Of a DNA stretch of 40,152 nucleotides, positions 12,925 through 32,303 are shown piece after piece. Every line of letters starts with the position of its first letter. Positions within the stretch are counted from its first letter, which is position 1. A model generated the notes under the pieces. That model was not told the origin of the DNA, did not search any database, and saw nothing but the letters and a program-made list of their open reading frames with translations. The position numbers and the translations under genes are program-made. Source of the stretch: Bacteroidota bacterium (GTDB lineage Bacteria > Bacteroidota > Bacteroidia > Flavobacteriales > Flavobacteriaceae); contig JAQCJC010000010.1 of assembly GCA_027593245.1 (NCBI GenBank), positions 1 through 40,152 of the forward strand, in the 5' to 3' direction.

Positions 12925-13644
12925 TTAAGCAGTCTTCTTAACTGCTAAACTGTAAATCACCAAACCGAAACCGATTTTATTGATAGCATCAGCAATGTTG
13001 TACCATACATCCATAGCTAAGCCTTCAGTTGGAAGTACATCGTACCATCCTTCTGTACCGGCCATGTATCCAATTGGGTAAATTGCCCAACCAACTAAAA
13101 CGAACCAGCAAAGAATTTTGTGCGCGTGTAGAACATCTCCTCCAGCTTCTTTAGCCATTTTAGCAGCTCCACCAAGCCATATTTCGTATACAATTACAAA
13201 ATATGCAAGTCCAGAAATAGTACCCCACATTACAGCGTTGCCCATTGTTTCTCCGAAATACCCAGTTACAAGCATTACGACTGAAAGCCCGATTAGTTTC
13301 CATAAAAGACTTTTAGTTGCACCAGCAACTTTGAGTATAAGATAGAATTCAACACACATTAATGGAACAGTAAGGATCCAATCAACATAACGGAAAGCAG
13401 TTACATTTGATACGTCTCCAGCCATAGATGCGTCACGCATGTACCAATAGTGTACAGCTGCAATAAATGTAATTAAACCAGAGACTAAAACAGAGGTTCT
13501 CCATTTTTTGTCAAACTGATTTAGAGATAAGAAAAAGAAGGCAGAAGCTGCCATCATTGCCATGCATCCAATAAAGAATGTGAAATTTACTGGGTCGTTG
13601 ACGTCTCCGCCGCCAGTAACAAGTGGTAAGAATAAATTTGTCAT
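12925..13644 (-). CDS. proteorhodopsin, light-driven proton pump (green-tuned, Met type)
   Basis: A 239-aa seven-helix retinal protein of the inner membrane that pumps protons outward in light. The Schiff-base lysine is Lys223 in ADAINKIGFG. Helix C reads RYVDWILTVPLMCVEF: Asp88 (acceptor), Thr92 and Glu99 (donor), corresponding to D97/T101/E108 of the reference proteorhodopsin, the DTE proton-pump motif. His65 (VHYWYMR) corresponds to the His that hydrogen-bonds the acceptor. The tuning site (reference 105) is Met96, as in cultured flavobacterial green-absorbing pumps. The gene is monocistronic, with its own promoter and strong terminator, and divergent from blh, which makes its chromophore. 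Carotenoid genes for the precursor are not in the window. Confidence 0.98.
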   Translation of the reverse strand: MTNLFLPLVTGGGDVNDPVNFTFFIGCMAMMAASAFFFLSLNQFDKKWRTSVLVSGLITFIAAVHYWYMRDASMAGDVSNVTAFRYVDWILTVPLMCVEFYLILKVAGATKSLLWKLIGLSVVMLVTGYFGETMGNAVMWGTISGLAYFVIVYEIWLGGAAKMAKEAGGDVLHAHKILCWFVLVGWAIYPIGYMAGTEGWYDVLPTEGLAMDVWYNIADAINKIGFGLVIYSLAVKKTA

Positions 13645-13665: not shown

Positions 13666-13679
13666 TTTGTTTAAACAAA
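13666..13679. promoter_or_regulatory. 14-bp perfect palindrome TTTGTTTAAACAAA over the proteorhodopsin start region
   Basis: The palindrome begins (minus-strand reading) on the TTTG of the -7 box and runs over the expected transcription start. A 13/14 match in the same register lies at the promoter of the photolyase operon at 27036-27049. Candidate operator. Confidence 0.5.
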
Positions 13680-13683
13680 TGTA
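13676..13683 (-). promoter_or_regulatory. -7 box TACATTTG of the proteorhodopsin gene
   Basis: On the minus strand TACATTTG is a perfect TAnnTTTG match 31 bp upstream of the ATG. Possible TTG elements lie upstream, but the spacing is somewhat long. Confidence 0.65.
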
Positions 13684-13755
13684 TCAATTTTTTTATATAA
13701 ATCTTTACCAAATCTCTTTTTTTTTGCTATTAAATTGATTATTTAACAGTTTTTT

Positions 13756-14643
13756 ATGAAAATTATTTATAGATTCTCAATCGTTTCAAGCTTCTTAGGA
13801 TTGTGGATTACAACCTTATTCCCCGAAGATTTTGAATTGATTTTAGGTTTTTTTCTGATCTTTACTTTTGGTATGATTCACGGTTCCAATGATATTTTAA
13901 TTATCAACTCATTGACAAATAAATCTAATTTCAACTTTGGTAAAATATTAATGACTTACCTCCTAGTAGTGGTAGGTGCAGTACTTATATTTTATTGGTT
14001 TCCTAGCTTAGCACTTATCCTTTTCATAGTGTTTAGCGCCTATCATTTTGGCGAGCAACATTGGGAAGAAGATCTAAAACTTGTTCATACTAATTACAAA
14101 AGGATTTATTTTTTTATTTATGGCCTGTTTATATTATTCATGGTCTTTTATTTTAATGATGATAATGTAAAAATGATTATCAATGAAATTGCCGGGATCA
14201 AACTTTATGATTTGTACTCAAAAGAAATTTCAATAGCACTGGGCGCTTCAATAGTTGTGTTTCTATTGTTCACGCTGAGGCAAAATAAAATTGAACTCAA
14301 CACAATTATTAAAGAACTTTTCACACTCATCATACTAATGATAATTTTTAAATCCTCTTCATTAATATGGGGGTTTACTATCTACTTCATCATTTGGCAT
14401 AGTATTCCTTCACTGTTGGAGCAAATTAAATTTGCTTATGGCGATCTAAAACGAGTACATATCATGGAGTATACAAAAGCTGCACTCCCTTATTGGATAG
14501 TTTCATTGCTAGGCATGAGTCTATTATATATTGTTTTGAAAGATGAAAAACATTTTTATAGTCTATTTTTTGCATTTATAGCTGCTGTCACATTTCCGCA
14601 CGCTATCGTAATGCTGAGGATGTTTTCAAAAAAAAATAATTAA
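13756..14643 (+). CDS. blh: Brp/Blh-family beta-carotene 15,15'-dioxygenase
   Basis: A 295-aa polytopic membrane protein that cleaves beta-carotene to two retinal molecules, supplying the proteorhodopsin chromophore. The conserved iron-ligand histidines are visible: GMIHGSNDI near the N-terminus, SAYHFGEQHW, IIWHSIPSLLEQ and FPHAIVMLRMF near the C-terminus. Length and the hydrophobic profile (about eight segments) fit the family. It is divergent from the proteorhodopsin gene across 111 bp, the common arrangement in marine Flavobacteriia. No strong TAnnTTTG box is seen in front of it. It ends at a bidirectional terminator shared with dnaK. Confidence 0.96.
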   Translation: MKIIYRFSIVSSFLGLWITTLFPEDFELILGFFLIFTFGMIHGSNDILIINSLTNKSNFNFGKILMTYLLVVVGAVLIFYWFPSLALILFIVFSAYHFGEQHWEEDLKLVHTNYKRIYFFIYGLFILFMVFYFNDDNVKMIINEIAGIKLYDLYSKEISIALGASIVVFLLFTLRQNKIELNTIIKELFTLIILMIIFKSSSLIWGFTIYFIIWHSIPSLLEQIKFAYGDLKRVHIMEYTKAALPYWIVSLLGMSLLYIVLKDEKHFYSLFFAFIAAVTFPHAIVMLRMFSKKNN

Positions 14644-21332: not shown

Positions 21333-21354
21333 AAATGTTAATGTTTGTTTAATT
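21333..21354 (+). promoter_or_regulatory. 22-bp shared upstream element, copy 1 (AAATGTTAATGTTTGTTTAATT)
   Basis: It differs at one base from the element at 26984-27005. In both places it lies exactly 26 bp upstream of a TAnnTTTG box that heads an operon ending in a photolyase. It contains the tandem half-site AATGTT-AATGTT. Candidate activator or light-regulator site. Confidence 0.6.
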
Positions 21355-21366
21355 ATTAAAATAAAA

Positions 21367-21378
21367 ACTTGAACAAGT
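21367..21378. promoter_or_regulatory. inverted repeat ACTTG-AA-CAAGT next to the -7 box
   Basis: Perfect 5-bp arms with a 2-bp centre, ending 2 bp upstream of the -7 box at 21381. The operon at 27060 has a different palindrome at the identical distance. Possible repressor site, perhaps for the TetR-like product of the first gene. Confidence 0.4.
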
Positions 21379-21380
21379 CA

Positions 21381-21388
21381 TATTTTTG
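21381..21388 (+). promoter_or_regulatory. -7 box TATTTTTG of the TetR/ABC1/cryptochrome operon
   Basis: A perfect TAnnTTTG match 17 bp before the ATG at 21406, with no obvious TTG at -33. The absence of a -33 element fits dependence on an activator bound further upstream. Confidence 0.6.
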
Positions 21389-21405
21389 TAAAAATCAATT
21401 TCCCT

Positions 21406-22062
21406 ATGGCAAAAAATACAAAGCTTACCAAAGATATACTTATTGCGTTGTACATGAACAGCGTACTTGAGCACAACGAAACACCAAAAAGCGTATACAC
21501 ATTCGCCAAGATGAACAATTTTGAGGAATCAGAATTCTATGGTTTTTTTGGTTCATTTGAAGCGTTGGAATCTTCAATTTTTGAAACTTTTTTCGATAAC
21601 ACCACCAAAACCCTCGAAAATAGTAAAGACTTCAAAAACTACGATGATCAGAACAAATTATTAAGTTTTTATTTTACATTTTTTGGAAATCTAACTGCAA
21701 ACCGCAGTTATGTTACTCAAGCTTTGCACAGCACTAAAGGCGGTCTAAATCATCTTAAAAAGCTTAAGCCCTTACGTAATAAGTTTTTAGAATTTGTGGA
21801 TGAATTAAATCTGACCGGTATTGAAATAAAAAATAAGCGTATCGACGATATCAAAGATCTTGTCGTAAACGAATCCTATTGGGTGCAAATGCTCGTGACC
21901 TTAAAATTTTGGTTAGACGACGACTCGGCAGATTTTGAGAAAACGGATCTTTTTATAGAAAAATCTATTGCTGCAAGCTTTGAATTGGCACATACAAAAC
22001 CTCTCAAGAGTGTGGTTGACTTTGGTAAATTTTTGTTTAAAGAAAAAATGGGCGCTCATTAA
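21406..22062 (+). CDS. TetR-like transcriptional regulator
   Basis: A 218-aa all-helical protein. Residues 10-60 fit a TetR helix-turn-helix: KDILIALYMNSVLEHN, TPKSVYTFAKMNNFEESEFYGFFGSFEALE, where the YGFFGSFEAL segment aligns with the YxHFxSKEAL block that ends TetR DNA-binding domains. The remainder would be the ligand-binding domain. The HTH is divergent and a non-regulatory role is possible. It overlaps the ABC1 kinase gene by one base (TAATG) and is the first gene of the operon reaching two photolyase/cryptochrome genes, so it may control its own operon. Confidence 0.72.
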   Translation: MAKNTKLTKDILIALYMNSVLEHNETPKSVYTFAKMNNFEESEFYGFFGSFEALESSIFETFFDNTTKTLENSKDFKNYDDQNKLLSFYFTFFGNLTANRSYVTQALHSTKGGLNHLKKLKPLRNKFLEFVDELNLTGIEIKNKRIDDIKDLVVNESYWVQMLVTLKFWLDDDSADFEKTDLFIEKSIAASFELAHTKPLKSVVDFGKFLFKEKMGAH

Positions 22063-23372
22063 TGAAATCCATCGACCGTATTCCTACATCAAAACTACAA
22101 CGGGCTTCAAAAATTGTAACTACTGGCGCTAAAGTTGGTGTTAATTACATCAAGTATTATGGAGAAAAACTAAGCAAATCGGAGAAAATTGCTAAGGACA
22201 ATCTAAACAAAAACAATGCTGAAGATATCTACGGTGGGCTCAAGCAACTTAAAGGCAGCGCGCTAAAGGTAGCGCAAATGCTAAGCATGGAAAAAAATAT
22301 TTTACCTCAGGCTTATGTTGAGAAGTTTTCCTTAGCTCAATTTTCTGTTCCCCCACTTTCCTCACCACTAGTAATAAAAACATTCAAAAAGTATTTTGGC
22401 AAAAATCCAGATGCAATTTTCGATCATTTTGATTCAAATTCTGTTAATGCTGCAAGTATTGGTCAGGTACATAAAGCCAAAAAAAATGGAAAAGAATTAG
22501 CCGTGAAAATTCAATATCCTGGAGTAGCGGATAGTATTAAATCAGATCTTGCAATGGTTAAACCAATAGCATTAAGAATGTTTAATATAAAAGGCAAGGA
22601 TTCCGAGAAATATTTTAAGGAAGTTGAGGACAAGTTAACTGAAGAAACCGATTATTGCCTCGAAATTCAACAAAGTCAAGAAATTTCAAAGGCTTGTGCG
22701 CATATTCCAAATATTCTTTTTCCTAACTACTACAACGAATATTCATCCAAGCGAATTTTGACCATGGATTTCATGAAAGGATTGCATCTTTCTGAGTACG
22801 TGAAGCAAAATGACGACCAAGAAAAGTTCAATCGATTGGGGCAAGCTTTATGGGATTTTTATATGCATCAAATTCACAATCTTAAAAAGGTGCATGCAGA
22901 TCCTCATCCGGGAAACTTTCTAATAAATAACGATGCCCAGTTAATTGCATTGGATTTTGGCTGTATGAAAGTGATTCCGGAAACATTCTATAAACCTTAT
23001 TTTGAATTAGCTGATATTGCAATTATAAATAATAAAAATTGTTTTTCAGAAAAATTATATGAGCTAGAAATACTCACTCCTAAAGACACTAAAGAAGAAG
23101 TTTCATTTTTCACGGACATGTTTCACGATTTACTTAGCGTCTTCACACTACCCTTCCAGAAAGAAATATTTGATTTCTCTGATTCAGATTTTTTTGGAAA
23201 AATCGGAGATCTTGCTGAAAGATATAGTCAAAGTTCAGAGCTGCGAAAGTTTAACAGCAATAGAGGATCAAAGCATTTTATCTATATGAACAGAACCTTT
23301 TTTGGGCTTTACAACCTGATGTTTGACTTGAAGGCTAAGGAAGTTAAGATTAATCAATTTCAACACTACTAA
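22062..23372 (+). CDS. ABC1/UbiB-family atypical kinase
   Basis: A 436-aa protein of the ABC1 (AarF/UbiB/Coq8) family, linked in other organisms to quinone or isoprenoid lipid homeostasis. Visible motifs are the Ala-rich loop NAASIGQVHKA that replaces a P-loop, the ATP-site Lys in LAVKIQYPGV, the ExD-type segment EETDYCLEIQQ, HADPHPGNFLIN and the metal-binding ALDFGCMK. The family-defining KxGQ motif reads KVAQ here (Gly to Ala). No transmembrane tail is evident. It is translationally coupled to the genes on both sides. Location in a light/UV operon suggests a stress role rather than routine quinone synthesis, but that is inference. Confidence 0.9.
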   Translation: MKSIDRIPTSKLQRASKIVTTGAKVGVNYIKYYGEKLSKSEKIAKDNLNKNNAEDIYGGLKQLKGSALKVAQMLSMEKNILPQAYVEKFSLAQFSVPPLSSPLVIKTFKKYFGKNPDAIFDHFDSNSVNAASIGQVHKAKKNGKELAVKIQYPGVADSIKSDLAMVKPIALRMFNIKGKDSEKYFKEVEDKLTEETDYCLEIQQSQEISKACAHIPNILFPNYYNEYSSKRILTMDFMKGLHLSEYVKQNDDQEKFNRLGQALWDFYMHQIHNLKKVHADPHPGNFLINNDAQLIALDFGCMKVIPETFYKPYFELADIAIINNKNCFSEKLYELEILTPKDTKEEVSFFTDMFHDLLSVFTLPFQKEIFDFSDSDFFGKIGDLAERYSQSSELRKFNSNRGSKHFIYMNRTFFGLYNLMFDLKAKEVKINQFQHY

Positions 23373-24010
23373 TGATACATTTAAAACGTCAAGACTTTGA
23401 AGAGTTAGACCATATATTTAGAATCAATTTGATTAACAGCTGCTCTGGTTTCAAATCAGCTAATCTTATAGGTACAAAATCTAATGATGGCACTCCTAAT
23501 GTTGCCGTTTTTAGCTCCGTAACTCATCTGGGCTCTAACCCTCCACTTCTTGGTATAATTTTTAGGCCTGTTACTGATGTGCCAAGAAATACTTACGAAA
23601 ACATAAAAGAAACTGGACAATTCACAATAAACCACATTGACGCTTCAATCATTCAAGATGCGCACCACACTTCAGCAAAATACCCAAAAGAGGTTTCAGA
23701 ATTCAATACCACTGAATTAGAAGAAGAATACAAGAATGGTTGGCATGCGCCATTTGTAAAAAACGCTCCGATTCAGATGGCACTTACCTACTGTGAAGAG
23801 TATGAAATAAAGGCCAACAACACTATACAACTGATAGGCGAAATCAAAGATTTATTCATACGTCCAGAATTATTGGAAGATGATGGATTTATCAATTTAT
23901 CAAAAGGCAACATTGTTGCAATAAACGGATTAGATGGGTATACTATTCCAAAACTTAAAGAGCGAATAGCTTACCAAAGACCAAAAAACAAAATAAACTT
24001 AAAGCGGTAA
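23372..24010 (+). CDS. flavin reductase-like FMN-binding split-barrel protein
   Basis: A 212-aa protein of the flavin-reductase-like/DIM6 group. It has the split-barrel FMN-binding pattern: GTKSNDGTPNVAVFSSVTHLGSNPPLLGIIFRP, then NTYENIKETGQFTINHID. Such proteins bind FMN non-covalently and either reduce free flavin with NAD(P)H or carry an unknown reaction. Between an ABC1 kinase and photolyases, supply of reduced flavin is a tempting idea but untested. It overlaps the kinase stop by one base. Its stop codon is followed, in the same frame, by the TTG of the DUF2256 gene. Confidence 0.87.
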   Translation: MIHLKRQDFEELDHIFRINLINSCSGFKSANLIGTKSNDGTPNVAVFSSVTHLGSNPPLLGIIFRPVTDVPRNTYENIKETGQFTINHIDASIIQDAHHTSAKYPKEVSEFNTTELEEEYKNGWHAPFVKNAPIQMALTYCEEYEIKANNTIQLIGEIKDLFIRPELLEDDGFINLSKGNIVAINGLDGYTIPKLKERIAYQRPKNKINLKR

Positions 24011-24013
24011 GTT

Positions 24014-24151
24014 TTGAAAAAATCACAATTACCAGTCAAAACTTGCGTTGTTTGCACAAGGCCCTTTAATTGGCGTAAAAAGTGGGCCCGGGATTGGGAA
24101 AATGTAAAATATTGTAGCAAAAAATGCAGCAGCACAAAAACACATCAATAG
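24014..24151 (+). CDS. DUF2256 small zinc-ribbon-like protein (missed by ORF track)
   Basis: A 45-aa protein starting at TTG and not in the ORF track. The sequence [20 protein letters not shown], followed by [17 protein letters not shown], matches DUF2256 very well (CxxCxRPFxWRKKW...W..V.YCS..C); the two Cys pairs suggest a zinc site. DUF2256 proteins are commonly encoded beside cryptochrome or photolyase genes, and their function is unknown. The start must be TTG: the only upstream in-frame codon before the flavin reductase TAA is GTT. The last 28 bp overlap the start of the cryptochrome gene in another frame, so translation is probably coupled. Confidence 0.9.
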
Positions 24152-25431
24152 TTTGGTTTAGAAACGATTTGAGATCGCAAGACAATAACGTTCTCAATTC
24201 TGCCCTAATGTCGTCTAATCGTGTTATTGGGGTTTACTTCTTGGACCCTAAATTATCTGAAACCACAAAATACGGGTTCAAAAAAATGGACCGTTACAGA
24301 GCAAGATTTTTATTAGAAACGCTTCACTGCCTCAAGCGGGAGTTAAACAAATTAAACATCAGCCTTCTTGTGTTTAATACTGCTGCTGAACATAAAATGA
24401 GCAGCTTGGTTACATCATTTGACGTCGATTCCATTTTTCTTCAAAAAGAATGGACTTCTGAAGAACAATTAAGCTTAGAAAAAGTTAAAAATGTACTCCC
24501 TAAGGGCATTAAAATACACGAAATTTATGACCAGTTTTTATTTGATCCTGAGGATGTCCCTTTTGGTGCGCATAAAACCCCAGTAGTTTTTACGCAGTTT
24601 AGAAAGTTGCTTGAAAAAAAATCTAAAGTAAAACAATTAGTTGAACTTAAGCCCCAAAACATCGATTCCTTAATAAATCAGCACACTAAAATCCCGAACT
24701 TAATAGATATTGGATTTGATACTTTTGAAAAGGACGACCGTACTGCGTTTCCATTTGAGGGAGGAGAAATATCTGCTGATCTGCGTTTGAATCATTACTT
24801 TTTTGAATCAAAAGCACTTGGGGTTTATAAAAAAACAAGAAATGGACTCTTAGGATTAAATTACAGCTCAAAACTTTCGGCATGGTTAGCAAACGGAAGC
24901 ATATCAGCTCGCCAAATTTACTGGAAAGTTAAGATGTTTGAGAAACAATATTTCTCAAATCAATCCACATATTGGTTGGTATTTGAATTGATTTGGCGTG
25001 ATTTTTTCAAATATACCGCTCTCAAGCATCGTAATTCCATATTCAAATTAGGCGGCATTCTTGAGAAAACTTATGAATGGTCAACAAATCAAAAATTTGT
25101 TCAACAATGGGTGAATGGTGAAACGGCTGATGACTTTGTAAATGCCAATATGATTGAGCTTAAAAAAACGGGGTGGATGAGCAATCGAGGGCGTCAAAAT
25201 GTCGCTTCCTTTTTTGCTAAGTCACAAAAGCTAGATTGGCGGATTGGTGCCGCTTATTTTGAAAGTATGTTAATTGATTACGATGTACACAGCAACTATG
25301 GAAATTGGATGTATGTTTCTGGTGTAGGCAATGACCCTAGAGATCGCGTTTTTAACGTTGATTTGCAGGCTAAGCGATACGATGCAAATAAAAAGTTTAG
25401 AAATCAATGGTTACAAACTAAATTATTTTAA
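24124..25431 (+). CDS. cryptochrome DASH / DASH-type photolyase
   Basis: A 435-aa flavoprotein of the cryptochrome/photolyase family. Residues 1-170 form the Rossmann antenna domain ([28 protein letters not shown]). The FAD-binding helical domain includes [42 protein letters not shown] and the DASH-type [26 protein letters not shown], ending [17 protein letters not shown] proteins repair CPDs mainly in single-stranded DNA and bind MTHF as antenna. The gene overlaps DUF2256 at its start and abuts the Fe-S photolyase (TAAATG). Confidence 0.93.
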
Positions 25432-26964
25432 ATGAAAACTTTACGCCTTATACTGGGAGATCAACTCAACGAAAACCATTCATGGTTTTCGAGTGTTGAC
25501 GATCAAATTTTGTATTGCATTTTTGAAATGCGTCAAGAAACAGATTATGTTCAACACCACATTCAAAAAGTTATTGGTTTCTTTGCTGCCATGCGCGCTT
25601 TTGGAGAACGACTTAAAGACAAAGGGCACAGAGTACATTATTTTAAAATTAATGATGCTAAAAATCATCAAAATTTAGAGAAAAATATAAAATTACTTAT
25701 TGAACAGAACAATATTGGGCACTTTGAATACCAAGCTCCTGACGAGTATCGCTTAGATGAACAAATGAGAACAATTTGTAGTGCTATTAAAATAAGTTAT
25801 AAATGTCATGATTCTGAACATTTTTTAACAACTCGTGGTGAACTAAGCTCTTTTTTTGAAGGTAAGAAGCAACTTCTAATGGAACGATTCTACAGGTATA
25901 TGCGCAAAAAACACCACATTTTAATGGTAGGTGAGCAACCAGAAGGCGGGATTTGGAATTATGACCACAACAATAGAAAAAAATGGAAAGGTTCACCAGA
26001 AATACCAATATATAAAGCATTCAAGAATGAGACCAAAACAATTTGTGATGACATAGTTAAAAGTAAAATAAAAACAATAGGTCATTTTAAAGGACCCTTT
26101 TTCGAATACCCGATAAATCTAAAACAGGCACAACATCAATTATCCTATTTTTGCAAAAACCTTCTCCCCTATTTTGGTGACTATCAAGATGCGCTTCACA
26201 GCGATGAAGTATACCTTTTTCACTCTAGGCTTTCATTTGCCATGAATTTAAAAATAATTAGCCCCAAAGAAGTTATTTATGCTGTTTTAAATGAATATAA
26301 AAAAAATAAGGAAGCCGTAACCATAGCGCAAGTAGAAGGCTTCATTCGCCAAGTTATAGGTTGGCGAGAGTACATGCGCGGTATGTATTGGAAAGAGATG
26401 CCGGTGTATAAAGGATTGAATGAGTTGGAAAATCATGAAAAAATCCCAGATTTCTTTTGGACAGGAAAAACAAAAATGAATTGCCTTGAAAAAACAATTA
26501 AAAATTCTCTTGACCACGCTTATGCACATCACATCCAACGGTTGATGATTACTGGTAATTACCTCTTACTTACACAAACTCATCCTGACGATGTTGACGA
26601 CTGGTATTTAGGAATTTATATCGATGCTTTGCAATGGGTGCAGCTACCAAATACAAGAGGAATGAGTCAATATGCAGATGGTGGTAAAATAGCAACTAAG
26701 CCATATGTTTCATCAGGAAGCTACATAAATAAGATGAGTAATTATTGTAGTTCGTGTCAATACAACGTCAAGGAACGTCTTGGACCAAATGCTTGTCCCT
26801 TCAATAGTTTATATTGGAATTTCTTAGACGACAAAAAACAGAAACTCGCCAAAAACCAGCGTATGCGTATGATGTATTCGGTTTTGAATAAATTTTCGAG
26901 CGAAGAAGTACACAAAATTAAACTTAGAGCAAGTGAGATTATGAGTAATCCTGAAAATTATTAA
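25432..26964 (+). CDS. Fe-S bacterial cryptochrome / (6-4) photolyase (PhrB type)
   Basis: A 510-aa protein of the deoxyribodipyrimidine photolyase-related (FeS-BCP) clade, whose characterised members repair (6-4) photoproducts. The start LRLILGDQLNENHSWF is diagnostic. Four cysteines fit the [4Fe-4S] ligands: Cys351 (MNCL before the AYAHHIQRLM motif), Cys439 and Cys442 (CSSC) and Cys455 (NACPF). These are each one position from C350/C438/C441/C454 of Agrobacterium PhrB. WYLGIYIDALQWVQLPNTRGMSQYADGG is the conserved active-site block. Known members bind dimethyl-ribityl-lumazine as antenna. It is the last gene of operon 1, with 95 bp before the next start. Confidence 0.95.
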   Translation: MKTLRLILGDQLNENHSWFSSVDDQILYCIFEMRQETDYVQHHIQKVIGFFAAMRAFGERLKDKGHRVHYFKINDAKNHQNLEKNIKLLIEQNNIGHFEYQAPDEYRLDEQMRTICSAIKISYKCHDSEHFLTTRGELSSFFEGKKQLLMERFYRYMRKKHHILMVGEQPEGGIWNYDHNNRKKWKGSPEIPIYKAFKNETKTICDDIVKSKIKTIGHFKGPFFEYPINLKQAQHQLSYFCKNLLPYFGDYQDALHSDEVYLFHSRLSFAMNLKIISPKEVIYAVLNEYKKNKEAVTIAQVEGFIRQVIGWREYMRGMYWKEMPVYKGLNELENHEKIPDFFWTGKTKMNCLEKTIKNSLDHAYAHHIQRLMITGNYLLLTQTHPDDVDDWYLGIYIDALQWVQLPNTRGMSQYADGGKIATKPYVSSGSYINKMSNYCSSCQYNVKERLGPNACPFNSLYWNFLDDKKQKLAKNQRMRMMYSVLNKFSSEEVHKIKLRASEIMSNPENY

Positions 26965-26983
26965 GCTGTTAAAGAAAAACTAA

Positions 26984-27005
26984 AAATGTTAATGTTTTTT
27001 TAATT
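26984..27005 (+). promoter_or_regulatory. 22-bp shared upstream element, copy 2 (AAATGTTAATGTTTTTTTAATT)
   Basis: 21 of 22 bases are identical to the element at 21333-21354, and it has the same 26-bp distance to a TAnnTTTG box. It starts 20 bp downstream of the Fe-S photolyase stop, outside coding sequence. Confidence 0.6.
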
Positions 27006-27013
27006 GTAACTAG

Positions 27014-27029
27014 TAATGTTATAACATTA
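27014..27029. promoter_or_regulatory. 16-bp perfect palindrome TAATGTTATAACATTA
   Basis: Perfect dyad ending 2 bp upstream of the -7 box at 27032, where the -33 element would be. Its half-site AATGTT repeats the core of the adjacent 22-bp element, suggesting the same protein could bind both. Confidence 0.5.
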
Positions 27030-27031
27030 AT

Positions 27032-27039
27032 TAAGTTTG
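27032..27039 (+). promoter_or_regulatory. -7 box TAAGTTTG of the photolyase operon 2
   Basis: A perfect TAnnTTTG match 20 bp before the TTG start codon at 27060. Its last bases begin an inverted repeat AGTTTG-N6-CAAACT (27034-27051) that resembles the palindrome at the proteorhodopsin promoter. Confidence 0.55.
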
Positions 27040-27059: not shown

Positions 27060-27485
27060 TTGGTTCTAGATACAACAAATTACAACAAGGAGCACAAGTC
27101 AATTATCGATCAGTTTGTTGGTGAATCATACAATCTATGGGAAGCTATAAGACGTGGTGGTGTGGGTTCAAAACGGATGATTGTAGAAAAATTGAGTCCA
27201 AATTTAGGCCACATTACCAACACCACTTCTGACATCAATTATGCTAATATTGAACTAAGAAAAAGAGGCGTTCTAATTCACATTACAAAAGGTTTAAAAA
27301 ACTACACTTGGGCAATAACATTTTACCAGCTTGTTTTTTATAAAACAAACTTCACTAGCATCCACGCACAAGGAAAATTTATTCATTTTAAAAATTCCAA
27401 AATGTTTAAAGAAAATAAATCCTTTTTTAAGAATTTAATGAACGAAAAAATTGAGTTTGATCAACAATATATACTTCCTCATTAA
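27060..27485 (+). CDS. conserved-looking 141-aa protein of unknown function, first gene of photolyase operon 2
   Basis: A 141-aa cytoplasmic protein that I cannot assign to a named family. It has a helical start (SIIDQFVGESYNLWEAIRRG) and a central block GSKRMIVEKLSPNLGHITNT, then DINYANIELRKRGVLIHITK. An aromatic stretch (YTWAITFYQLVFYKT) could be a beta-rich core rather than a membrane helix. The start is TTG, agreeing with a -7 box 20 bp upstream; no in-frame ATG occurs before residue 40. It ends on TAATG, coupling it to the TIGR03643 gene. As promoter-proximal gene of a photolyase operon it merits attention. Confidence 0.8.
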   Translation: MVLDTTNYNKEHKSIIDQFVGESYNLWEAIRRGGVGSKRMIVEKLSPNLGHITNTTSDINYANIELRKRGVLIHITKGLKNYTWAITFYQLVFYKTNFTSIHAQGKFIHFKNSKMFKENKSFFKNLMNEKIEFDQQYILPH

Positions 27486-27757
27486 TGAAACTAACAGCAA
27501 TTGATATCGACAGAATTATTGAAATGGCTTGGGAGGATCGTACAACTTTTGAGTCAATTAAATTTCAATTTAACTTAACAGAACAGCAAGTGATTGAGCT
27601 CATGCGTAGCCAAATGAAACCAAAAAGTTTTAGGCTTTGGCGGGCAAGAGTTCAAGGCAGAAAAACAAAACATCAGATGCTCCGCTCTTTTGAATCGGGT
27701 CGATTCAAATGCAGTAGACAAAAAACAATTTCAAATAATAAAATTTCAAAACGCTGA
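27485..27757 (+). CDS. TIGR03643/DUF2805 family protein
   Basis: A 90-aa basic protein that matches TIGR03643 (DUF2805): IDRIIEMAWEDRTTFESIKF, LTEQQVIELMRSQMKPKSF, RLWRARVQGRKTKHQ. The AWEDRTTFESI and EQQVIELMR segments look like a helix-turn-helix, and the C-terminal tail is strongly basic with a single Cys, so nucleic-acid binding is plausible. Members are repeatedly encoded next to cryptochromes and DUF2256; function is unknown. It overlaps the preceding gene by one base and is followed after 4 bp by folE. Confidence 0.9.
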   Translation: MKLTAIDIDRIIEMAWEDRTTFESIKFQFNLTEQQVIELMRSQMKPKSFRLWRARVQGRKTKHQMLRSFESGRFKCSRQKTISNNKISKR

Positions 27758-27761
27758 AGAC

Positions 27762-28445
27762 ATGAACACTAACTCCACAGAAAAAAATTCACTAAATGAG
27801 TTTTCTCATTACGCAATTGGAGACGACCACCTATATACTGGATTAGAAACGCCAATAAAAAAAGATGCTTTTTTGTTAAGTGATGAAGATAAAAAGAAAA
27901 AAATTTCAATTCTATTTGAAGAGATAATGAATGTCATGGGCCTAGATTTAGAAGATGACTCTCTTAGAGGTACACCAGATCGAGTGGCTAAAATGTATAT
28001 TGATGAAATTTTTTCAGGCTTAAACCCCAAAAACAAGCCTAAGATAGCATTGTTTGATAACAAATACCAATACAATCAGATGTTGGTTGAAAAGAACATT
28101 ACATTTTATTCCAACTGTGAACATCACTTTGTTCCTATAGTAGGCAAGGCCCATGTGGCATATATTTCATCTGGAAAAGTTATTGGCTTATCCAAACTGA
28201 ACAGAATTGTACAATATTTCTCAAAGCGTCCACAAGTTCAGGAACGCTTGACAAATCAGATTGGTGAAGAACTAAAAAAAATCTTAGGAACTGATGACGT
28301 TGCTGTAATTATTGATGCCAAACACTTGTGTGTTTCATCTAGGGGGATTAAAGACGAATCCTCAGCTACTGTTACTGCTTACTACAGCGGAGCGTTTAAT
28401 AGCTCAGCCAAAATAGCTGAGCTAAATAATTATATAAAATCATAA
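27762..28445 (+). CDS. folE: GTP cyclohydrolase I FolE
   Basis: A 227-aa enzyme converting GTP to 7,8-dihydroneopterin triphosphate, the entry to folate and other pterins. Zn ligands and catalytic residues are visible in YSNCEHHFVPIVGKAHVAYI and in AKHLCVSSRGIKDESS; the core also has RGTPDRVAKMY and GLSKLNRIVQYFSKRPQVQERL. The ORF-track start lies inside the upstream gene; ATG 27762 (MNTNSTEKN) follows the TIGR03643 stop by 4 bp. DASH and CPD photolyases use methenyl-THF as antenna, so folE here may raise pterin supply in light (inference); it could also be the only housekeeping copy. Confidence 0.96.
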   Translation: MNTNSTEKNSLNEFSHYAIGDDHLYTGLETPIKKDAFLLSDEDKKKKISILFEEIMNVMGLDLEDDSLRGTPDRVAKMYIDEIFSGLNPKNKPKIALFDNKYQYNQMLVEKNITFYSNCEHHFVPIVGKAHVAYISSGKVIGLSKLNRIVQYFSKRPQVQERLTNQIGEELKKILGTDDVAVIIDAKHLCVSSRGIKDESSATVTAYYSGAFNSSAKIAELNNYIKS

Positions 28446-28447
28446 TA

Positions 28448-28672
28448 ATGAGTACGATAAAACAAGGAGAAGAATTTTTAAACAAGAGTTTAAAATTTAA
28501 AAACACAAGCGAACGAATTGAAGCTTCAAGAGAGGTTAAGTCGTTAATTCTGGGTATAAATGAGATTTACAAGACCAACAAGGATCAGAAATTGATGGAT
28601 CTAATGAAGGACCTCACAGTTGTCAAACAAAAAATTGAAAAGCGATTAAAAGGAAGGCCATTAAAGTCATGA
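28448..28672 (+). CDS. 74-aa helical protein of unknown function
   Basis: A 74-aa, highly charged, probably all-helical protein with no Cys, no Trp and a basic C-terminus (KQKIEKRLKGRPLKS). No family is recognised. It is real rather than a chance ORF because its start follows the folE stop by 2 bp, its stop overlaps the SDR start (ATGA), and no other frame explains the interval. It may act as a small adaptor or nucleic-acid-associated factor, but no motif supports a specific role. Confidence 0.72.
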   Translation: MSTIKQGEEFLNKSLKFKNTSERIEASREVKSLILGINEIYKTNKDQKLMDLMKDLTVVKQKIEKRLKGRPLKS

Positions 28673-29352
28673 AAACTATCATTATTATTGGCGGAAGCAA
28701 AGGAATTGGAGAAGCAATTATTGAAAAGCTTATTCCAAACTACCTAATTATCAATCTAAGTAGATCGAAACCCCATATTGAACACCAGAATTTAACACAT
28801 TACAATTGTGATGTTTTGAGTGATGAACTCCCAGCTATTGAGCGTGCTGATGGCCTTATATATTGTCCTGGAAGTATAAATCTAAAGCCGTTTAAAAGAC
28901 TAAGTTTGGACGACTTCAGAACAGATTTTGAAATTAATGTCATTGGTGCCGTAAGGAGCATACAGGCTTATGCACCAGCACTTGTTCAATCAGAAAATGG
29001 ATCAATTGTACTTTTCAGTTCGGTTGCTACATCTATGGGTATGCCTTTCCATGCGAGTGTTTCTACTGCAAAGTCTGCTGTAGAGGGCCTCATGAAGTCT
29101 GTTGCAGCTGACTTGGCACCCAAAGTCAGGGTTAATGCTATTGCACCAACAATCACCCAGACAGATCTTGCAGCAAAGTTACTGCGCAATGAACGCATGA
29201 TCGAAAATACAATACAAAGGCACCCACTAAAGAAATTTTTAGACCCGAGCGAAGTTGCTGCAATGGCTGAATATTTGATTTCAGATGTGTCAAAATCATT
29301 ATCTGGCCAAGTGTTTAAACTCGATTGTGGAATTGTTTCTTTAAAGGTTTAA
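28669..29352 (+). CDS. SDR-family oxidoreductase with non-canonical active site
   Basis: A 227-aa Rossmann-fold protein of the classical SDR family. The cofactor loop is IIGGSKGIGEAI, followed by YCPGS (the NAG-like segment), the structural Asn in FEINVIGAV, the catalytic Ser in IVLFSSVAT and the catalytic Lys in STAKSAVEGL. The Tyr expected four residues before that Lys (YxxxK) is Val (HASVSTAK), so the usual proton donor is missing. The C-terminal RVNAIAPTITQTDLA and SGQVFKLDCGI are typical. The substrate is unknown and it may have a different mechanism or a binding role. It overlaps the 74-aa gene and abuts the peroxidase gene. Confidence 0.9.
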   Translation: MKTIIIIGGSKGIGEAIIEKLIPNYLIINLSRSKPHIEHQNLTHYNCDVLSDELPAIERADGLIYCPGSINLKPFKRLSLDDFRTDFEINVIGAVRSIQAYAPALVQSENGSIVLFSSVATSMGMPFHASVSTAKSAVEGLMKSVAADLAPKVRVNAIAPTITQTDLAAKLLRNERMIENTIQRHPLKKFLDPSEVAAMAEYLISDVSKSLSGQVFKLDCGIVSLKV

Positions 29353-29353
29353 C

Positions 29354-29905
29354 ATGATCCACTCAAGACTTCTTACGTTAATTTTATTTTTTTTTATTAC
29401 TTCAAATAATACAAATGCACAAAACAGTAAACCCATGAACATATACGATATCAATATTAATGCTCTTGGTGGGACTCCAATAAAACTCAAGGATTACAAA
29501 GGAAAGTACATTCTGTTTGTTAATGTCGCATCTGAGTGTGGGTTTACAAATCAATACGCAGGACTTGAAAAACTTTACAATACGTACAAAGAAAGACTGA
29601 TGGTGATCGGAGTTCCTTGTAATCAATTCGGACAACAAGAGCCTGGAGACCCAACTCAGATAGAAAACTTTTGCAAAAAAAATTATGGGGTATCCTTTGT
29701 GATGACCGAAAAAATAATTGTTAAAGGCAAAGATAAACACCAGTTGTACAACTGGTTAACTGACAAGAAATTGAATGGTAAAAACAATACTTCTGTTAAA
29801 TGGAACTTTCAAAAATATATTGTTGGACCCGATGGTGAATACATAGATTATTTCTATTCAATGACAAAACCAATGAGTAGCAAAATCACGAAACTAATTA
29901 AATAG
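29354..29905 (+). CDS. exported glutathione peroxidase-like thiol peroxidase
   Basis: A 183-aa GPx-family peroxidase, 23 or so residues longer than cytosolic forms because of a signal peptide (LLTLILFFFITSNNTNAQ), so probably periplasmic. Peroxidatic Cys lies in NVASECGFTNQY, with the partner residues in VPCNQFGQQEPG and VKWNFQKY. A further Cys in NFCKKNYGVSF is where thioredoxin-dependent GPx enzymes have the resolving Cys. The peroxidatic codon is TGT, so this is not a selenoprotein. It removes hydrogen or lipid peroxides, which fits an operon for light damage. Confidence 0.92.
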   Translation: MIHSRLLTLILFFFITSNNTNAQNSKPMNIYDININALGGTPIKLKDYKGKYILFVNVASECGFTNQYAGLEKLYNTYKERLMVIGVPCNQFGQQEPGDPTQIENFCKKNYGVSFVMTEKIIVKGKDKHQLYNWLTDKKLNGKNNTSVKWNFQKYIVGPDGEYIDYFYSMTKPMSSKITKLIK

Positions 29906-29907
29906 AT

Positions 29908-30075
29908 ATGTTTGGATTATTTAAACGAAAAACTGAGACTGAAAAGTTACAAGACCGCTACAAAAAACTTATGGCTGAATGGCATGACTTGTCGTCTATC
30001 GACAGATCGGCAAGTGATGCTAAATATGCCGAGGCACAAAAAGTATTGGACCAACTTGACGAATTAACGCTTTAG
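29908..30075 (+). CDS. Lacal_2735-type small protein (missed by ORF track)
   Basis: A 55-aa protein not in the ORF track (below its length limit). The sequence MFGLFKRKTETEKLQDRYKK, then LMAEWHDLSSIDRSASDAKY and AEAQKVLDQLDEL, fits the Lacal_2735 family of small, charged, helical proteins found in Flavobacteriia near photolyase and TspO genes. The N-terminal MFGLFKR could make peripheral contact with the membrane. Function is unknown. It starts 3 bp after the peroxidase stop, and its TAG directly abuts the tspO ATG. Confidence 0.88.
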   Translation: MFGLFKRKTETEKLQDRYKKLMAEWHDLSSIDRSASDAKYAEAQKVLDQLDELTL

Positions 30076-30537
30076 ATGAAATTCACAGTTGTTCTTATTG
30101 TATTCTTAGCGCTAAATTTTGGCGCTCTTGCTCTTGGTACAATACTAATGGCTAATGGACCTGAAACGCTTTGGTATTCATCTCTAAATAAAGCGCCATG
30201 GACTCCTGCAGGTTGGGTTTTTGGTGCTGCATGGACCTGCGTAATGGTTTTTTTCTCCGTATTTATGACCTTTCTTATTCAAAACGAAAACCTCAATAAA
30301 GTTCTTAAGCTTTACATTATACAATTTATACTGAATGTATCTTGGAATTATATATTTTTTAACCAACAGCTCACAACGCTTGGTCTAATGAGTATAATTA
30401 CACTCACGATTCTTGTATTGTATTTCCTAGTTGCTTTTAAGGAGAGTCTAAAACAAAACCGGTTTTTTATACTGCCTTATTTTATTTGGCTAATAGTGGC
30501 CACTTCACTCAATGCCTATATTGTACTCTATAACTAA
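30076..30537 (+). CDS. TspO/MBR family protein (tryptophan-rich sensory protein)
   Basis: A 153-aa five-helix membrane protein of the TspO/translocator family. Loop 1 has WYSSLNKAPWTPAGWVFGAAW, the cholesterol/porphyrin-pocket signature, and later helices include NVSWNYIFFNQQ and ATSLNAYIVLYN, with the aromatic and Asn residues common in the family. Bacterial TspO binds and helps degrade porphyrins in light and affects stress responses. In this operon it is likely part of photo-oxidative protection. It directly abuts the gene before it and the SRPBCC gene after it. Confidence 0.94.
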   Translation: MKFTVVLIVFLALNFGALALGTILMANGPETLWYSSLNKAPWTPAGWVFGAAWTCVMVFFSVFMTFLIQNENLNKVLKLYIIQFILNVSWNYIFFNQQLTTLGLMSIITLTILVLYFLVAFKESLKQNRFFILPYFIWLIVATSLNAYIVLYN

Positions 30538-31005
30538 ATGAAATTATACACTTTACATACAAAACAAAATCTTCCAATATCTTTGGATGAAGCTTGGGCA
30601 TTTTTATCAAGCCCAGAAAACTTAAAGACAATAACTCCTGATTATATGGGATTTCATATTTTATCTGGTGCAGATCGAGAGATGTATCCTGGACAGATTA
30701 TTCAATATATTGTAACTCCTGTATTGGGCATCAAAACAAAATGGGTCACAGAAATAACCCATGTTCAGGACAAATCATACTTTGTAGACGAGCAACGTTT
30801 TGGTCCCTATGCACTTTGGCATCATAAGCATTTTATTAAACCAATAAAAGGAGGTGTTGAAATGGAAGACATAGTGGACTACAAACTTCCTTTTGGAATG
30901 CTTGGACAATTGGCACATCCCATACTAGTTAAACCAAAACTAAAAGAGATCTTTGAGTATAGACAAAAAAAACTTATTGAGCTCTTTGGCCCTTTCAAAT
31001 CATGA
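30538..31005 (+). CDS. SRPBCC-family ligand-binding protein
   Basis: A 155-aa START/Bet v1-like (SRPBCC) fold: LPISLDEAWAFLSSPENLKTITPDYMGF at the N-terminus, GIKTKWVTEITHVQDKSYFVDEQ and FGPYALWHHKHFIKPIKGG in the strands, and a C-terminal helix. These small proteins bind hydrophobic ligands and are commonly encoded beside photolyases in Bacteroidota and cyanobacteria; some are labelled cell division inhibitors without direct evidence. The ligand is unknown. It overlaps the photolyase gene by 4 bp (ATGA), so the two products are probably made together. Confidence 0.88.
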   Translation: MKLYTLHTKQNLPISLDEAWAFLSSPENLKTITPDYMGFHILSGADREMYPGQIIQYIVTPVLGIKTKWVTEITHVQDKSYFVDEQRFGPYALWHHKHFIKPIKGGVEMEDIVDYKLPFGMLGQLAHPILVKPKLKEIFEYRQKKLIELFGPFKS

Positions 31006-32303
31006 GTCCTACAGCTATTTTTTGGTATAGAAGAGATCTAAGACTTAATGATGTTCATGGCTTATATCAAGCGCTAAAACAGCACGAGAGTGTTCTTCTT
31101 ATATTTATATTTGACCCTGAAATTTTAGGTTGTTTGCCAAAGGATGATGCCCGTGTTGATTTTATATACCATCGACTAAAAGACCTAAATATTGCGCTTA
31201 GTAAACATCGAACAGCAATTCATACATTTTATGCAAGCCCAAAGGAAGTATTTACTTCAATAATAAAACAACACAACATCAAGGCGGTGTATACCAATCA
31301 CGACTACGAGCCTTATGCCATTAAAAGAGATGCGGATATTGAAGCACTGTTAAATGATCAAAAAATCACATTTACATCATACAAAGACCAAGTTATTTTT
31401 GAAAAGAATGAAGTCACAAAAGATGACGGTTTACCCTATAAAGTTTATACTCCCTATTCAAAGAAATGGTTGAGTTTATTTGATGAAAAGCAAACACAAG
31501 CTTATCCATCTGAGGAATTTTTAGACAATGCGGCAAAATTAGAAGTACCTCAATGGGTAGAAAAGAAAGATATGGGCTTTGTTTCATCAAAAACAAAAAT
31601 TGAACCGTACAAAATTGAAGATGAATTAATAGATGCATACGAAGAGAAAAGAAATACACCCTCAGTAGATGGAACATCCCGACTGGGCCCCCATTTGCGC
31701 TTTGGAACGGTAAGTATAAGAAGTATTGTGAAAAAATCGAGAAATAGCCAAAACATTACATTTTTAAAAGAGCTTATTTGGCGTGAGTTTTTTATGCAAA
31801 TCTTATGGCATTTTCCCGATACTATAGCAAAAAGTTTTAAGCCGCAATACGAAGCAATAAAATGGCGTAACAATAAAGAAGAGTTTCAAATGTGGTGCCA
31901 GGGTAAAACAGGTTATCCGCTAGTTGATGCTGGGATGCGCGAATTGAATCAAACAGGATTTATGCACAACAGAGTTCGCATGCTTGTCGGTAGTTTTTTA
32001 TGCAAACACTTACTCATAGATTGGCGATGGGGTGAAGCTTACTTTGCTGAGAAGTTACATGATTTTGAGCTATCCAGCAATGTGAGCAATTGGCAATGGG
32101 TAGCGGGTTGTGGAGTTGATGCAGCACCCTATTTTAGAATATTTAATCCTACAACACAAATCACAAAATTTGATAAAGATCACCTTTACATCAAAAAATG
32201 GGTTCCTGAATATCAAGAATTTTCGTATCCTAAACCTACAGTCGATCATAAATTTGCTCGAGAACGTTGTTTGGAAACCTACAAAAAAGCATTGAACAGA
32301 TAA
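31002..32303 (+). CDS. phrB: deoxyribodipyrimidine photolyase, class I CPD type
   Basis: A 433-aa light-driven DNA repair flavoprotein. The antenna domain starts AIFWYRRDLRLNDVHGLYQAL. The FAD domain shows TSRLGPHLRFGTVSIRS, LIWREFFMQILWHFP, TGYPLVDAGMRELNQTGFMHNR and SNWQWVAGCGVDAAPYFRIFNP, the class I signature. Length is slightly below E. coli PhrB (472). Repair of cyclobutane dimers is the likely activity. It differs in clade from the DASH and Fe-S proteins of operon 1, so the block covers CPD and (6-4) lesions. It is the last gene of operon 2 and converges on murA with 8 bp between stops. Confidence 0.94.
   Translation: MSPTAIFWYRRDLRLNDVHGLYQALKQHESVLLIFIFDPEILGCLPKDDARVDFIYHRLKDLNIALSKHRTAIHTFYASPKEVFTSIIKQHNIKAVYTNHDYEPYAIKRDADIEALLNDQKITFTSYKDQVIFEKNEVTKDDGLPYKVYTPYSKKWLSLFDEKQTQAYPSEEFLDNAAKLEVPQWVEKKDMGFVSSKTKIEPYKIEDELIDAYEEKRNTPSVDGTSRLGPHLRFGTVSIRSIVKKSRNSQNITFLKELIWREFFMQILWHFPDTIAKSFKPQYEAIKWRNNKEEFQMWCQGKTGYPLVDAGMRELNQTGFMHNRVRMLVGSFLCKHLLIDWRWGEAYFAEKLHDFELSSNVSNWQWVAGCGVDAAPYFRIFNPTTQITKFDKDHLYIKKWVPEYQEFSYPKPTVDHKFARERCLETYKKALNR

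Follow-up and report, generated by a model that had tools for sequence, protein, structure and literature searches.

An inverted repeat at two photolyase operons as the putative operator of a light-released CarH/LitR-type repressor in Flavobacteriaceae

The promoters of two photolyase operons in a stretch of Flavobacteriaceae DNA (the window; 40,152 nucleotides, the entire contig C37 of a 2.02-Mb assembly with 142 contigs, 91% complete) both carry the putative operator of a light-released, MerR-family, B12-binding repressor of the CarH/LitR type, a reading to which we assign a probability of roughly 0.75. This putative operator is conserved and keeps its register to the -7 box; it precedes a particular gene set and co-occurs with the regulator gene, whose product has the B12-binding signature. 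From these sequence features we infer binding by a CarH-like protein, repression, AdoCbl as the chromophore and release by light. The wider proposition, that this one inverted-repeat operator and His132-independent CarH-like proteins form a light regulon of photorepair, carotenoid and proteorhodopsin genes across Flavobacteriaceae, stands at even odds. If true, it would name the regulator, the operator and the targets behind the light response in a family abundant in sunlit waters. A single protein and a single DNA site would then suffice to test light control of photolyases, carotenoids and proteorhodopsin, and proteorhodopsin light control in Flavobacteriaceae would gain a defined regulator and binding site. 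It would also describe a CarH-type system with another operator geometry, and a light state reached without the Thermus bis-histidine switch.

The original prediction had singled out two 22-mers that differ by one mismatch, each followed after exactly 26 bp by a TAnnTTTG box. All of this holds: AAATGTTAATGTTTGTTTAATT lies at 21333-21354 and AAATGTTAATGTTTTTTTAATT at 26984-27005, both on the + strand, with a 26-bp gap at each promoter (boxes in Table 1). Allowing up to three mismatches brings up no further match in the 40-kb window (shuffles average 0.07), and the whole assembly adds a single A/T-rich site with three mismatches. When the pattern is extended to include AACA-N5-TAnnTTTG, the assembly matches are these two places only, with 0 in the control. 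Genome-wide, the 22-mer is rare, with two good copies in the assembly, both tied to TAnnTTTG boxes. A position-weight matrix built from other genomes, the window's genus excluded, ranked the operon 1 promoter first (21.8) and the operon 2 promoter second (-2.5) among distinct places in the window. The best scores in 60 simulated windows had a mean of -18.1 (sd 5.0) and a maximum of 0.1, so that operon 1 exceeds all 60 simulations and operon 2 nearly all.

Table 1. Operons, promoter elements and candidate operators in the window
Feature	Position	Strand	Basis or remark
Operon 1: TetR_C_23, ABC1 kinase, flavin reductase, DUF2256, CRY-DASH, DPRP (FeS-type) photolyase	21406..26964	+	Pfam, NCBIfam
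Operon 2, first part: 141-aa protein, DUF2805/TIGR03643, GTP cyclohydrolase I, 74-aa protein, SDR	27060..32303 (whole operon)	+	Pfam, NCBIfam
Operon 2, second part: GPx, 55-aa protein, TspO, 155-aa protein, class-I photolyase	within 27060..32303	+	
Third box TGTTAA, operon 1	21336..21341	+	in 52/188 related sites a TGTnnA box precedes the distal arm by exactly 10 bp
Distal arm TGTTTAA, operon 1	21346..21352	+	register as in relatives
Proximal arm TTGAACA (consensus TTAAACA), operon 1	21369..21375	+	one mismatch to consensus
-7 box TATTTTTG, operon 1	21381..21388	+	Bacteroidetes TAnnTTTG consensus; TATCTTTR conserved in relatives
Third box TGTTAA, operon 2	26987..26992	+	as operon 1 third box
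Distal arm TTTTTAA, degenerate, operon 2	26997..27003	+	TGTTTAA in nearest relative G047
Proximal arm TATAACA, degenerate, operon 2	27020..27026	+	within perfect 16-bp palindrome TAATGTTATAACATTA, 27014-27029
-7 box TAAGTTTG, operon 2	27032..27039	+	TAnnTTTG match
Probable degenerate operator, proteorhodopsin promoter (tentative)	13668..13699	-	-7 box TACATTTG (13676-13683) inside

Comparison with relatives redefined the element. There the same promoters share an inverted repeat of 30 bp, TGTTTAA-N16-TTAAACA, with 5 bp between its end and the -7 box; aligned regions ahead of the TetR-like gene read TTTTGTTTAAC-N14-GTTAAACA, then 5 bp, then TATCTTTA/G. Over 71 sites, nearly all conservation lies in the -7 box and the pair of arms. 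Seen in this register, the 22-mer combines the distal arm with an additional TGTTAA box that stands exactly 10 bp further upstream, and we dropped it as the unit because conservation covers only part of it. The putative binding unit is rather the inverted repeat, whose second arm, 5 bp before the -7 box, had been overlooked; this proximal arm stands at equal distance from the -7 box in operons 1 and 2. Among the related sites, the third box prefers offset -10, other offsets having 0-7 occurrences each. The arms are about 24 bp apart from centre to centre. Most relatives conserve the repeat at the TetR-gene promoter, some of them with compensated arms, TGTCTAA..TTAGACA. The operon 2, crtI and proteorhodopsin sites of the window's genome are degenerate; the nearest relative has the better operon 2 distal arm, so that the window's copy has decayed. 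A search of the window's own genome for degenerate copies with 3 mismatches gave no excess over control. A CRP/FNR-type site was rejected, as its spacing differs from that of the observed repeat.

The repeat recurs at the same genes across the family. The pattern TGTYTAA-N15-17-TTARACA-N4-5-TAnnTTT occurs at 110 sites in 73 of 121 Flavobacteriaceae genomes; the reversed pattern, our control, occurs at 1. Of the 110 sites, 53 immediately precede operon 1's TetR-like gene (itself found in 77 of the 121 genomes), 22 precede the 141-aa gene and 2 fall at MerR-crtI. The other 33 comprise 15 that stand before additional light-cluster genes, 10 before htpG and 3 beside fasciclin genes, with 5 unexplained. 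In a scan of named species, a light-cluster gene was the nearest, or nearly the nearest, recognised downstream gene at 72 of 80 loci among the matches listed, which come from Polaribacter, Winogradskyella, Algibacter, Zobellia, Cellulophaga, Flavobacterium and other genera and nearly all sit beside the same cluster. Arms, spacing and gene context are conserved over more than 70 genera. The element is thus present upstream of orthologous operons in Flavobacteriaceae relatives, and its position before photolyase-cluster genes supports the earlier proposal that it marks a light/UV gene set. The photolyase gene cluster has been described as enriched in proteorhodopsin-bearing marine Flavobacteriia (PMC5932025), the same lineage and the same cluster type; the passages of that paper that we searched treat gene content and mention neither MerR nor an operator. 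The searched passages of the open-access literature contain no earlier description of this operator, and a prior description may exist.

The candidate regulator is a 299-aa MerR protein encoded in the window's genome beside crtI on contig G000:C141 (L035 820-1719, - strand). Pfam assigns MerR_1 (57.3 bits, cut-off 21.6) and the B12-binding_2 helical domain, and the protein matches the CarH structures 3whp and 5c8d at 5e-12; the C-terminal B12 Rossmann domain was not detected by Pfam, and this part aligns to CarH by sequence only. Across 97 such regulators, W131, E141 and H177 never vary (97/97), and 84/97 have H142; these four residues have been named as a light-responsive signature (PMC11796333). 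The His132 position is Gln in 83/97, the window's genome included, and His in 3. The motif is present in 73 of the 97 genomes with the regulator (again including the window's) versus 1 of the 24 without (Fisher p 9e-11, ancestry not corrected for), a co-occurrence that may derive partly from shared ancestry. One genome, G080 (81% complete), has motifs and no regulator that we could find. On these counts, a MerR/LitR-type regulator encoded elsewhere, as had been guessed, is the best-supported candidate. Operator and regulator may also covary: TGTCTAA arms occur in G038, G040 and G067, all three with a divergent MerR. We take this as a hint only, because normal arms accompany a divergent MerR in G025, and G047 shows a single changed arm.

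The proposed system would work like a CarH/LitR regulon, yet as a variant. CarH, the AdoCbl photoreceptor-repressor of carotenoid genes in Thermus thermophilus, Bacillus megaterium and Myxococcus, shares with the regulator here a MerR N-terminal DNA-binding domain, a B12-binding region with W131, E141, H142 and H177 kept, a gene beside crtI with a linked operator (44/97), an operator overlapping the promoter, and a TnnACA half-site (PMC9304148), found here in each arm (TTAAACA). Tandem 11-bp direct repeats, three to four of them in CarH operators (PMC9304148), and His132 were both looked for and not found; the arms here are instead inverted, with the third box at 10 bp. His132 completes light release in Thermus CarH, whereas the position is mostly Gln here; the H132A variant of CarH remains mostly tetrameric once illuminated (PMC10442372). 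If release does occur, the bis-His state of Thermus CarH is ruled out as its means because His132 is missing. Light-responsive B12 domains without His132 exist, with Arg in CtMerR and Gln in the photocobilin SasPcob (PMC11796333), although the domain architecture of SasPcob differs. The proposed target set is also larger than that of CarH, including photolyases and probably proteorhodopsin. In this it resembles that of class II LitR (PplR/PmlR2 of Pseudomonas), likewise a MerR-type light-response repressor, whose targets are phrB, cryB, folE, SDR and similar genes (PMC9758184).

The same comparison raises a different possibility, that another regulator travels with the CarH-like gene or that the CarH-like protein acts through a separate sensor without B12. 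The missing His132 speaks for it, as does class II LitR, which lacks a complete B12 domain and works through short LOV proteins (PMC9758184). Class II LitR sites, however, read TGTACA-N12-TGTACA, and class II lacks one of the two B12 domains, whereas the regulator here strongly keeps its B12-contact residues and has the repeat at its own junction with crtI in 44 genomes. We consider this possibility doubtful.

At the crtI and proteorhodopsin promoters the repeat takes another position. In 44 of 97 genomes it occupies the junction of the MerR gene with crtI and has the TAnnTTTG box inside it; in about 14 it is found upstream of the MerR gene itself, a layout that would be typical of autoregulation. 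The -7 box at this junction stands about 8-12 bp before the crtI ATG (L070, L072, L073 and others), which suggests a crtI transcript that is leaderless or nearly so. The site of the window's genome is decayed (TGTATAG..ATACACA), that of G047 less so. Of 24 rhodopsin-gene upstream regions from the family, 14 have a repeat with a score of 12/14 or more, versus 1/480 shuffles; these repeats mostly enclose the -7 box, and one of the 14 (G056, without MerR) lies away from the usual position. The window's own rhodopsin gene (12925-13644, - strand) diverges from Blh, a beta-carotene dioxygenase gene (13756-14643, + strand), and its promoter repeat is weak at 11/14; G047 has TGTCTAA-N17-TTAAACA there. 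A crtI/proteorhodopsin-type matrix found no match above null in the 40-kb window, and therefore the window's proteorhodopsin site draws on relatives only.

These positions favour repression over activation, because the -7 box falls within the repeat at crtI and proteorhodopsin, whereas at the two photolyase operons the repeat stands upstream of the box: a repressor accounts for both, while an activator would require a fixed upstream place. An activator had been proposed on the grounds that the promoters have no -33 TTG and would need a protein bound upstream. The absence is real and conserved. Neither window promoter has a TTG at -33 spacing, 17 of 188 related sites have one with a 19-20 bp spacer, and 71 counted sites show a T-rich stretch without TTG at the expected place; the absence need not mean activator dependence. 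The fixed distance from repeat to -7 box at the TetR and 141-aa promoters would also suit an activator, but a protein bound over the -7 box at crtI and rhodopsin should block polymerase, and the known proteins of the CarH and class II LitR types are repressors (PMC9304148, PMC9758184). An activator is in our judgement unlikely.

Because of this position argument, and because the known relatives of the regulator act as dark repressors (PMC9304148, PMC9758184), we propose dark repression with light release. Without light the regulator, probably as an AdoCbl-bound oligomer, would sit on the boxes and block RNA polymerase; in light the Co-C bond would break and the protein leave the DNA. Photolyases, cryptochrome and folate/pterin and membrane-protection genes would then be expressed, with crtI and proteorhodopsin as probable further targets in relatives.

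The first gene of operon 1 offers another binder, a TetR-like protein that would autoregulate both operons through the repeat. Its gene adjoins the commonest site, its predicted TetR fold has an N-terminal helix-turn-helix-like region, and autoregulation is frequent among TetR proteins. Yet when the two candidate regulator genes are compared for co-occurrence, motif presence tracks the CarH-like MerR gene and not the TetR-like gene. The motif is kept in 12 of 22 genomes that have MerR and no TetR-like gene, while G060, a complete genome with the TetR-like gene and no MerR, has lost the repeat upstream of that gene and kept TATCTTTG. The MerR-crtI and rhodopsin sites, moreover, lie away from the TetR gene, and the 24 bp that separate the arm centres are more than a TetR dimer usually spans, all of which leaves TetR autoregulation very unlikely. 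Coincidence, or the copying of an A/T-rich promoter stretch that has no regulatory role, might be suspected in an A/T-rich genome with imperfect copies but is refuted by the 110-to-1 excess over control, the context shared by more than 70 genera and the top rank of both promoters under a matrix trained elsewhere.

The CarH/LitR-type reading leaves several observations on the genes themselves. The end genes of both operons had been named before; those labels were incomplete, and full gene lists are now assigned (Table 1). The pairing of a TetR_C_23 TetR-fold protein with an ABC1 kinase in a light operon (21406-23372) is one observation. A COQ9-like role for the TetR-like protein beside this kinase was not supported by a PDB fold search, which returned ordinary TetR regulators (best E 4.5e-3), COQ9 being absent among the matches listed. 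The 141-aa protein (27060-27485) belongs to no family; its predicted model has a pLDDT of 90 and a weak PH-like match (best E 0.06). The 155-aa protein of operon 2 has no Pfam match, and we read it as SRPBCC-like.

Across 295 Bacteroidia genomes the pattern is rarer, with 25 sites in 20 genomes against 9 in the control. Neighbours there include rhodopsin, Blh, ECF sigma factor, crtI, MerR and fasciclin genes, some outside Flavobacteriaceae. An ECF-linked regulator had also been suggested; we saw no sign of an ECF factor acting at the two window promoters, and ECF genes are instead possible targets in other families, where they follow the repeat (L407, L409, L410) and might relay a light response. 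Several genomes have fasciclin-domain genes next to the repeat (L151, L156, L157, L416, L420, L429). An unexpected target would be htpG, at 10 loci (L131, L137, L139, L141, L143, L144, L145, L148, L153, L155), and at 8 of these 10 a KAS III gene lies on the other side of the repeat.
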